Origin: Cytophagales bacterium
GTDB lineage: Bacteria > Bacteroidota > Bacteroidia > Cytophagales > Microscillaceae
Assembly: GCA_013298075.1 (NCBI GenBank)
Contig: JAAFJG010000044.1
Location: 1 to 38,362, forward strand
Direction: 5' to 3'
DNA length: 38,362 nt
In this document: piece by piece, positions 14,117-27,002 of the stretch
Numbering within the stretch: the stretch's first letter is position 1
Layout: each line of letters begins with the position of its first letter
Notes under the pieces: generated by a model
The model's database searches: none
Seen by the model: only the letters and a program-made list of their open reading frames with translations
Told to the model about the DNA's origin: nothing
Position numbers and translations under genes: made by a program

Positions 14117-14785
14117 ATGGTCATAAAATCTTTTGAAAAATGGAGAATTGGAGAAGTAGAACGAACTTTTGGGATTCGTTTTCATAAGAAATTAGCGTTG
14201 ATGGATAAATGGCTCGATTTTGAAAAAGATATTACAACAGAAAAAAAATAGAATCGAACCATTAAGACTTCTTTTGGAAGAAATGGCGATATTTTGGGGA
14301 GAAGAAGACATTAAAGTTTTTTTTATTATTCCAATTATTTCTATCGTTAATTTTTATATATTTGATAAATATCGTACTTTTATGGAGGCAACTTTTCAGG
14401 CAGAAGTAAAAGATGTAGAGGATAATATTTATAATTTGCGTGGGGGTGTATAAATGGTCGTAGCAACAGGAAAACAAGACCCAGAAATTCCTTTTTTCTT
14501 TTTGAATGAATATAAAGCACAAGCAAAAGGAGGTTTTTTAGACCCCACAAGGACACTTTTAATCGCAATGTTAGCGGCACAAACCAAAAATAAGGCTATA
14601 AATTTTCCTATTTATGGCATGTATAATATTGGACAAAATTTTTTTTTCGTATTATTGGAACAAAAAAAAATTACACAATTAGTAAACAATTTGACGCAAC
14701 TGATAAACAAGATTTAGAAAAAATAGTTTCCATGTTACAATTTGTAAAAAATCATATTGAAAATATTGTTAATTCATCAATATAA
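14117..14785 (+). pseudogene. Decayed copy 1 of the tandem PD-(D/E)XK-like family
   Basis: It is almost identical to copy 4 (16350-17018) but broken. A 2-nt loss near 14241 shifts the frame into a TAG; a GAA-to-TAA change at 14451-14453 stops the second frame just before MVVATGKQD; paired small indels near 14545-14557 turn DPQGQLL into DPTRTLL; and another shift near 14668 loses the TISKQFDAT segment. The remaining sequence still follows the family to the end VNSSI and TAA at 14783. Two frames that look like genes at 14220-14453 and 14454-14717 are fragments of this pseudogene. Confidence 0.85.
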
Positions 14786-14806
14786 AAAGAAAAAAAACAT
14801 ACAAAT

Positions 14807-15469
14807 ATGGTCGTAAAATCTTTTGAAAAATGGCAAACGGAAGACTTACAACTAACGTTTGGCATCAAACCAAAACAAAATTCTGTTCTGATGGATAATT
14901 GGTTGAAAGCAAATGATAGTTTGTCTGATGAACAGAAAAATACGTTAGAAAATTTGCGTGAACGTTTATCTTATTTTGTAAATTATTGGAATGAACAAGA
15001 TTTGAAAAACTTTTTTATTATGCCAATTATCAATTTAATTGATTTTTGTCATCTTACAAAATATAGAACTTTTATGGAACACGTTTTTGCGGCTGATGTA
15101 GTAGATATTCATAATAATACGGTTTCTTTGCGTGGACGTGTGGAAATGGTGGTGGCAACAGGTGAACAAAAACCTCGAAATCCTTTTTTCTTTTTGAATG
15201 AATATAAACCGCAATTAAAAATACAAACTGACCCACAAGGACAATTATTGAGTGCAATGTTGGCAGCACAAGCGAATAATCAGAGCGATTTAGCCATTTA
15301 TGGAATGTATAATATTGGGCAATTATGGTTTTTTGTGGTGTTGGAAAGAAAAGAATATACAATCACCAAAGCCATCGATGCAACTAATAAACAAGACTTA
15401 GATAAAATAGTTTCGATGTTACAATTTGTAAAAAATCATATTGAAAATATTATTAATTCATCAAAATAA
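14807..15469 (+). CDS. PD-(D/E)XK-like family protein, copy 2
   Basis: A 220-aa soluble protein of unknown role. Motif layout: E63 in WNEQDLKNFFIMPII, E113 in RGRVEMVVATG, E132, K134 and Q136 in FFFLNEYKPQ, and Q144/Q146 in DPQGQLLSAMLAAQ. This resembles the E...D/E...E-x-K...Q order of PD-(D/E)XK nucleases, with Glu in the usual Asp position. The C-terminal helix QDLDKIVSMLQFVKNHIENI is shared by all copies. It is the most diverged of the four. Its TAA stop is exactly the left target-site copy of the MITE-like element that follows. Fold is inferred from motifs; activity is unknown. Confidence 0.72.
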   Translation: MVVKSFEKWQTEDLQLTFGIKPKQNSVLMDNWLKANDSLSDEQKNTLENLRERLSYFVNYWNEQDLKNFFIMPIINLIDFCHLTKYRTFMEHVFAADVVDIHNNTVSLRGRVEMVVATGEQKPRNPFFFLNEYKPQLKIQTDPQGQLLSAMLAAQANNQSDLAIYGMYNIGQLWFFVVLERKEYTITKAIDATNKQDLDKIVSMLQFVKNHIENIINSSK

Positions 15470-15641
15470 GGATCGAGAAAATAATAATGTAAACTTTTTA
15501 TTTTATTTATTTTTGAGATATAAAAAATGTTATCACTGCAAAAAATGGCTTAGTAATAAACAAACTAAATAACTAAAAAATAGAATAATTTTAATTTTAT
15601 ATTTACTTTTTTTAGTGTTTACATTATTTAAAATCCGATCC
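15470..15641 (+). mobile_element. 172-bp MITE-like element at the stop codon of copy 2
   Basis: The ends are GGATCG...AATAATGTAAAC (15470-15494) and its inverted partner (15617-15641): 25 bp with mismatches only around positions 7-13. It is flanked by TAA on both sides (15467-15469 and 15642-15644), a probable 3-bp (or TA-based) target duplication. Other family members have no such spacer between stop and next start, so the insertion is recent relative to the duplication. It holds no frame of useful length. Confidence 0.75.
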
Positions 15642-15664
15642 TAAAAAGAAAAAAACATATAAAT

Positions 15665-16330
15665 ATGGTCGTAAAATCTTTTGAAAAATGGAAAACGCAA
15701 GAAGTAGAAGATACTTTTGGTATACAATTTTTAGAAGAATATCTAAAAATGGATAAATGGTTGGAATCGGACATATTTATCACCGATTTAGAAGCAATAA
15801 GATTAGAAATTTTGAGAAAAAAACTAAAATTAAATGCTGATTTTTGGGGAGAAGAGGACATAAAAGCGTTTTTTATTTTTCAAATTATTGATATAATCGA
15901 TTTTTATGAATTTGGAAAATATCGTACTTTTACAGAAGCAACTTTTGAAGCAGAAGTAAAAGATATTCATCATAATAGTTGGAGTTTACGGGGGCGTGTG
16001 GAAATGATTGTTGCGACAGGAAAACAAGTTTTACAAACTCCTTTTTTCTTTTTGAATGAATATAAACCACAAATAAAAGCGGTTTCAGACCCAAAAGGAC
16101 AACTTTTAATCGCAATGTTAGCAGCACAAACCAAAAATAAAGATACAAATTTTCCCATTTATGGCATGTATAATATTGGGCAAAATTTCTTTTTTATATT
16201 ATTAGAAGAGAAAAAATATACGATTAGTAAACAATTTGATGCGACTGAAAAACAAGACTTAGAAAAAATAGTTTCGATGTTACAATTTGTAAAAAATCAT
16301 ATTGAAAACATTGTTAATTCATCAATATAA
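15665..16330 (+). CDS. PD-(D/E)XK-like family protein, copy 3
   Basis: A 221-aa member of the same family as copy 2, with WGEEDIKAFFIFQII, RGRVEMIVATGKQ, FFFLNEYKPQ and DPKGQLLIAMLAAQ, and the same C-terminal helix. All motif residues are kept. It follows the MITE-like element and is separated from copy 4 by 19 nt. The leader AAAAAGAAAAA...CATA is nearly the same before copies 2, 3 and 4, which shows that the duplicated unit includes the translation start region. Confidence 0.72.
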   Translation: MVVKSFEKWKTQEVEDTFGIQFLEEYLKMDKWLESDIFITDLEAIRLEILRKKLKLNADFWGEEDIKAFFIFQIIDIIDFYEFGKYRTFTEATFEAEVKDIHHNSWSLRGRVEMIVATGKQVLQTPFFFLNEYKPQIKAVSDPKGQLLIAMLAAQTKNKDTNFPIYGMYNIGQNFFFILLEEKKYTISKQFDATEKQDLEKIVSMLQFVKNHIENIVNSSI

Positions 16331-16349
16331 AAAGAAAAAACATACAAAT

Positions 16350-17018
16350 ATGGTCATAAAATCTTTTGAAAAATGGAGAATTGGAGAAGTAGAACGAACT
16401 TTTGGGATTCGTTTTCATAAGAAATTATCGTTGATGGATAAATGGCTCGATTTCGAAAAGGACATTACAATAGAAGAAAAAAATAGAATTGAACCATTGA
16501 GACTTCTTTTAGAAGAAATGGCAATATTTTGGGGAGAAGAAGACATTAAAGTTTTTTTTATTATTCCAATTATTTCTATCGTTAATTTTTATATATTTGA
16601 TAAATATCGTACTTTTATGGAGGCAACTTTTCAGGCAGAAGTAAAAGATATAGAAAATAATATTTATAATTTGTGTGGGCGTGTAGAAATGGTGGTAGCC
16701 ACAGGAAAACAAGACCCAGAAATTCCTTTTTTCTTTTTGAATGAATATAAAGCACAAGCAAAAGGAGGTTTTTTAGACCCGCAAGGACAACTTTTAATCG
16801 CAATGTTAGCGGCACAAACCAAAAATAAAGACATTAATTTTCCTATTTATGGCATGTATAACATTGGACAAAATTTTTTTTTCGTATTATTAGAACAAAA
16901 AAATTATACAATTAGTAAACAATTTGATGCGACTGATAAACAAGACTTAGAAAAAATAGTCTCGATGTTACAATTTGTAAAAAATCATATTGAAAACATT
17001 GTTAATTCATCAAAATAA
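16350..17018 (+). CDS. PD-(D/E)XK-like family protein, copy 4
   Basis: A 222-aa member with WGEEDIKVFFIIPII, GRVEMVVATGKQD, FFFLNEYKAQ and DPQGQLLIAMLAAQ. In the E-x-K-x-Q motif the Pro before Gln is Ala, and the usual RGR is CGR. It is nearly identical to pseudogene copy 1, so one was copied from the other recently across copies 2 and 3. The frame can be extended to 16302, but that part is the end of copy 3; ATG 16350 matches the starts of the others. It is 43 nt before the Fe-S protein gene. Confidence 0.74.
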   Translation: MVIKSFEKWRIGEVERTFGIRFHKKLSLMDKWLDFEKDITIEEKNRIEPLRLLLEEMAIFWGEEDIKVFFIIPIISIVNFYIFDKYRTFMEATFQAEVKDIENNIYNLCGRVEMVVATGKQDPEIPFFFLNEYKAQAKGGFLDPQGQLLIAMLAAQTKNKDINFPIYGMYNIGQNFFFVLLEQKNYTISKQFDATDKQDLEKIVSMLQFVKNHIENIVNSSK

Positions 17019-26358: not shown

Positions 26359-26883
26359 ATGAAATTTTATTTTCCTTTATTTTTTGCGATAATATTATTT
26401 TTTTCGCACCATTCTCAATCATTGGCACAACTCGAATACAGAGGAATTACCCCAAAAATAAATGCTGGAGTTCACAGAGGCGGTTTTTATACGGATATAA
26501 ATCTTTTATTTGGATATAGAAATGTAGATAAATCCTCAAATAGTTTTGTGCCTGTCAATATTCCTGAGCGAGGATTTATGTGGAGTATGGGCGTAGAAAG
26601 TAATTATTTTTTTAAGACAGATTTTCGACTTACACCTAAAATCACTTTCGAATATCACGATTATTTGAATCTACTTATTTTTCGTTTGCAAAATAGATTA
26701 TATCCTGCCCAAGATATGAATTTTGCTAAGGCATCTTTCCAAACTTGTCCCGAAGTAGGTATAAATATTTTTGGATTAGTGTTTTTGACTTATGGATATA
26801 GTTTTGGATTGACCAATAGAGATGTTACCAAAGATTTAGGGCATCAAGTAAATATAGGTTTTGCTTTGCCTTTTGGTGATTAG
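26359..26883 (+). CDS. Exported protein, probable small outer-membrane beta-barrel
   Basis: A 174-aa protein with signal peptide MKFYFPLFFAIILFFSHHSQSLAQ given here as about residues 1-24. The mature part has alternating polar and hydrophobic strands rich in Tyr, Phe and Gly (GGFYTDINLLFGYRN, WSMGVESNYFF, FLTYGYSFGL) and ends HQVNIGFALPFGD, a terminal strand typical of beta-barrels. I cannot name a family. It follows the radical SAM gene by 86 nt and is closed by a hairpin in a convergent spacer. Confidence 0.62.
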   Translation: MKFYFPLFFAIILFFSHHSQSLAQLEYRGITPKINAGVHRGGFYTDINLLFGYRNVDKSSNSFVPVNIPERGFMWSMGVESNYFFKTDFRLTPKITFEYHDYLNLLIFRLQNRLYPAQDMNFAKASFQTCPEVGINIFGLVFLTYGYSFGLTNRDVTKDLGHQVNIGFALPFGD

Positions 26884-26919: not shown

Positions 26920-26948
26920 ATTGTCCTCCAGATAAATCTGGAGGCAAT
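26920..26948. terminator. Bidirectional hairpin in a convergent spacer
   Basis: CCTCCAGAT and ATCTGGAGG pair perfectly with a 2-nt loop, and the stem extends by ATTG/CAAT with one bulged base. T-rich and A-rich DNA flank it on both sides. It separates a plus-strand gene ending at 26883 from a minus-strand gene ending at 27003. Confidence 0.7.
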
Positions 26949-27002
26949 TCAAGATAAATTTTTATTTCCATTGAAAATTTTTTAAGATGTAAAAAGCCAA
27001 TT

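Follow-up and report, generated by a model that had tools for sequence, protein, structure and literature searches.

We conclude with high confidence that a non-autonomous MITE of 172 bp, mobilized in trans, entered the TAA stop codon of the second gene of a tandem array and duplicated that stop codon upon insertion. The array lies in a stretch of 38,362 nucleotides from a Cytophagales bacterium, which was analysed as a whole and is referred to below as the window. The insertion is observed directly, together with its 3-bp duplication, paralogous sites that are empty, and dispersed copies of the same sequence. A sequence-only reading of this DNA had proposed a MITE-like element at this position, and the 17 copies in the genome, the inverted ends (35 end matches, 4 for a control), the RNA fold (z -4.5) and the empty paralogous spacers bear the proposal out. 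The element is a new MITE family of a well-known kind and an ordinary example of it. The interest of the case is modest: it is a clean instance of a TAA-target transposon in a stop codon, with the protein unharmed and empty sites available in the same array, and it adds one MITE family, apparently limited to one species, whose parent was not found with the transposase families tried.

The element occupies positions 15470..15641 on the plus strand and has a G+C content of 18%, compared to 29% in the whole window. It starts with GGATCG and finishes with CGATCC. The left inverted repeat (15470..15494, plus strand) has the form GGATCG-N7-AATAATGTAAAC, and the right one (15617..15641, minus strand) repeats this bipartite pattern on the opposite strand. 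When the two ends are paired with each other, 18 of 25 positions agree, comprising 6/6 in the outer block, 0/7 in the middle and 12/12 in the inner block. The earlier description of the ends as well matched therefore applies to the two blocks but not to the full end, and the string GGATCG...GTAAAC that it quoted joins the two blocks present within every end, outer and inner, and does not give the two termini of the element. There is no gene that belongs to the element: in a list of ORFs of at least 30 aa, the two that reach into it, of 43 and 77 aa, cross only part of it. TAA stands on both sides, at 15467..15469, where it terminates array copy 2 as its stop codon, and at 15642..15644 (both plus strand), and the end of the left flank equals the start of the right flank at length 3 only. 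As had been claimed, the 220-aa ORF 14807-15469 terminates at the left TAA and is intact; with the left target copy still acting as the stop, copy 2 encodes an unaltered protein.

The array consists of four tandem paralogues on the plus strand, and the element sits between the second and the third. Copy 1 (14117..14785) is broken by frame changes and internal stops. Copy 2 (14807..15469, 220 aa) is intact and PD-(D/E)XK-nuclease-like by PADLOC profile. Copies 3 (15665..16330) and 4 (16350..17018) are intact, the latter with homology from 16350 and a start in the ORF list at 16302. The PADLOC PD-(D/E)XK profile matches copies 2 and 3 with 39 and 38.7 bits; Pfam gave no match for copies 2, 3 and 4 at 0.001, and copy 2 had no solved relative at E up to 1. 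The gene family is large in relatives, with 60 matches in one genome (G004) and 24 in the bacterium's own genome. Upstream of the array, in the segment 12181-14097, an Rpn-like ORF (TIGR01784, 24.5 bits, below the cut-off of 52.1) is followed by four short tandem ORFs of 59-75 aa in which, by eye, its C-terminal part is repeated.

Since both neighbouring array spacers are without the element, the window contains its own paralogous empty sites. One comprises the stop codon of copy 1 and the spacer to copy 2 (14783..14806), the other the stop codon of copy 3 and the spacer to copy 4 (16328..16349), both on the plus strand. Each consists of TAA, AAAG, a run of A and CATACAAATATG, with the element absent from both (2/2), and the flanks of the element, when joined after removal of one TAA, reproduce these sister spacers save for the length of the A run and single bases. 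Empty sites, which the sequence-only reading had proposed to look for in other strains, are thus present as paralogous ones within the window itself. In a genome of the same genus (G001), four spacers inside homologous arrays are likewise short and without the element; the best match to copy 2 in that genome has 74% identity, but its contig stops 9 bases further on and cuts the spacer there, so that G001 showed no orthologous empty site.

The genome contains 17 copies of the element, 90-99% identical to the window copy, so that the proposed search for other elements with GGATCG ends was successful. This number derives from the 18 strong rows among 26, where two rows in C132 represent one interrupted copy; the count leaves aside L019-L026, the 8 weakest rows, which are partial matches of short length. 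Twelve copies are two-ended and uninterrupted, the C132 copy has its ends 390 bp apart, and four are truncated or situated at a contig edge. Exact 3-bp duplications border 10 of the 13 two-ended copies (TAA in 7, TTA in 2, CAA in 1), which, with TAA on both sides of the window copy, upholds the 3-bp target duplication claimed for it. The ten include a head-to-tail pair in C2 with one common TAA. The copies in C16, C64 and C132 are without exact duplication, having decayed ends or mismatched flanks, and the left boundary in C16 is uncertain. Scanning the genome for the end pattern produced 35 matches (18 forward, 17 reverse) versus 4 for a reversed-pattern control; five of the 35, with 3 mismatches, are not family-like. 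Four loci (L083, L084, L085 and L086) carry lone left ends, which are probably old decayed copies; L083, L084 and L086 adjoin other small repeats. By eye, the copies fall into two subfamilies, each including one pair that does not differ: C94 and C63 have 0 differences over 171 columns, and C83 and C24 have none except a one-base gap. Because these pairs are without differences, movement of the element was recent.

The earlier reading also regarded the insertion as a dated marker inside the array. This claim has weak support, since the insertion is shown to be younger than the gene duplications but yields no absolute date. Between the window copy and the sibling closest to it there are 2 differences in 172 bases, and the proteins of array copies 2 and 3 have 60% identity; for this reason the insertion postdates the duplications that formed the array.

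The position in a stop codon could suggest that such codons are targeted. This was rejected, given that of the window's 552 non-coding TAA/TTA triplets 28 (~5%, with the author's choice of genes) are stop codons and that the chance of at least one stop-codon insertion in 16 is 0.565. With respect to the ends of ORFs of at least 70 aa (16 entries spanning 17 copies), the window copy alone lies at distance 0. Insertion into a stop codon is the expectation for a TAA-type target in non-coding DNA and is unremarkable. Two other copies touch reading frames. The mechanical start of a minus-strand ORF of 248 aa (L008:799-1545, C94) falls within an element copy, which may place the element immediately upstream of that gene, and a 71-aa ORF in C83 (L004) extends into the element copy there.

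A second dispersed repeat of ~200 bp, GGTTCATGGGAAATTATTGC ... CCGCACAAATTTCCC, has inverted ends similar to those of the first element. One copy of it (L017:1604-1814, G000:C132) splits a first-element copy and is flanked on both sides by AACTAAAT, an apparent 8-bp duplication. Further copies are located in L004 from 1312, in L006 from 2584, in L018, and in L007 from 483 to ~640 on the minus strand. By eye, the first-element copies in C83, C71 and C70 sit at the 3' end of the second repeat. Within the window, positions 26927-26956 match the interior of the second repeat (TCCAGATAAATCTGGAGGCAATTC) over 30 bp with at most 3 mismatches; this segment, a small palindrome, lies downstream of ORF 26359-26883.

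Among 36 other genomes of the order, nine gave weak short matches to the element, the best at 45.5 bits. Of 389 other genomes of the order, 5 carry the end pattern with at most one mismatch, always single, and the exact pattern has 3 single matches in GTDB r220 contigs. At these eight outside loci (3,025 or 8,000 bases around each) there is no partner end at up to 4 mismatches, and the eight matches are consequently taken as chance. The end pattern has 0 matches in viral contigs, and the element has no match in phages or plasmids. The element family is apparently restricted to one species; some of the outside databases may omit records very near the window's genome. In those parts of the literature that were accessible, no account of this element family was found, which is a weak negative. 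The sequence-only reading had named a segment with no other copies, and with the same spacer in distant relatives, as the finding that would make it an ancient spacer; with 17 copies in the genome, this test did not refute the proposal.

MITEs rely on a transposase acting in trans. For the present element, we infer the chemistry as follows: a transposase supplied in trans would bind both bipartite ends, the 172-bp piece would be moved to a TAA/TTA-type target and joined there across a staggered cut of 3 bp, and the TAA would thereby be duplicated, the target in this case being the TAA that ends array copy 2. Only the spacer from copy 2 to copy 3 was lengthened.

The search proposed earlier for an IS with the same ends found none in the 153-contig draft with the transposase families tried, namely PF13359, PF13340, PF05598, PF13586, PF13612 and PF01609. 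The first five had 0 matches in this draft, and PF01609 matched four loci, which are IS4-like, IS1634-like, ISAs1-like (below cut-off) and unclear IS4/IS701-like (below all cut-offs). Inverted repeats around three of the PF01609 loci (L087, L088 and L090; for the latter two, among the 25 longest listed) did not show the element ends, and the 35 genome end matches include no facing pair at IS spacing. For an IS5-superfamily derivative one would look for a 3-bp duplication of the TNA/TWA type. Nine of the ten exact duplications are TAA or TTA and one is CAA; the target of bacterial IS5 is given as ANT (PMC4482050). On the hint given by the TAA/TTA duplication we lean slightly towards a missing transposase of the IS5 superfamily, an assignment that one source disputes. 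The element is not filed as an IS5 derivative, because no IS5-type transposase element with its ends was found in the genome with the profiles tried. To an element of the same kind whose parent lay outside the IS5 superfamily, has been lost or escaped assembly, we would allow not quite an even chance. Such a parent would agree with the lack of genome matches to the IS5-type domains PF13359, PF13340, PF05598 and PF13586 and with the statement that bacterial IS5 elements duplicate ANT, not TWA (PMC4482050); it agrees less well with the duplication of TTA/TAA by IS1237, a member of the IS5 family (PMC2516522), and of TWA by PIF/Harbinger, which is related to IS5 (PMC4482050).

The sequence-only reading supposed that the added bases could provide copies 3 and 4 with a promoter or terminator, and a recruited MITE could act in this manner, or as an mRNA-processing hairpin, to part copy 2 from copies 3 and 4. 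A long inverted repeat between co-directional genes would be suited to such a role, and in Coxiella QMITE1 reportedly has sigma-70 promoters and QMITE2 reportedly alters gene ends (PMC5896051). Against this, the segment 15380-15760 contains 5 promoter-like matches versus 3.6 (sd 1.6) in shuffles, with a scan confined to sigma-70-type patterns, and 0 terminator-like sites, and the spacers of the other array copies manage without the element; we consider recruitment unlikely. It is far less probable still that the segment between copies 2 and 3 is an intergenic spacer of ancient origin or a regulatory RNA element that has been conserved. Its position between co-directional genes and its predicted RNA fold (z -4.5, with 0/200 shuffles as good) are what could be said for such an origin. 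However, none of the 36 predicted pairs shows a two-sided pair-keeping change when 11 of the 17 copies are aligned, so that the fold may simply reflect the inverted repeats and gives no pointer to selection on RNA, and no Rfam family matches the window at gathering thresholds. The absence of the element from the paralogous spacers, the near-identical dispersed copies with target duplications, and the restriction of matches elsewhere in the order to the weak short ones (9/36 genomes, at most 45.5 bits) all argue against an ancient spacer.

A more ambitious interpretation is that this is an orphan, recently active MITE family confined to a single species, with TAA-type targets that leave reading frames unharmed and a transposase of a type new to such ends. 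The targets that spare frames would be the stop codon described here and the 3' end of the second MITE-like repeat, the latter in 3/17 copies. We regard this interpretation as improbable. Known systems resemble the element in several respects. PIF/Harbinger elements share the 3-bp TWA target duplication (PMC4482050) but differ in having eukaryotic hosts and the PF13359 transposase, which is absent from this genome. IS1237 similarly has a 3-bp duplication, TTA (TAA), and ends that begin with G, but it is 899 bp long and encodes a transposase, and its ends read GAGGTGGTTTC... (PMC2516522), whereas the present element is gene-less and has other ends. Compared by description, MITECca01 of Cardinium (~240 bp) differs in that its parent, the IS982-family element ISCca4, is resident (PMC9769881), where none was found here; it was likewise not found in other sequenced Cardinium strains (PMC9769881). 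MITECca01 and the QMITE1 and QMITE2 elements of Coxiella are like the present element in that they are short and gene-less, with inverted ends and many dispersed copies (PMC9769881, PMC5896051), and QMITE1 has direct repeats of 2-3 nt (PMC5896051), to be compared with the 3-bp duplication described here.
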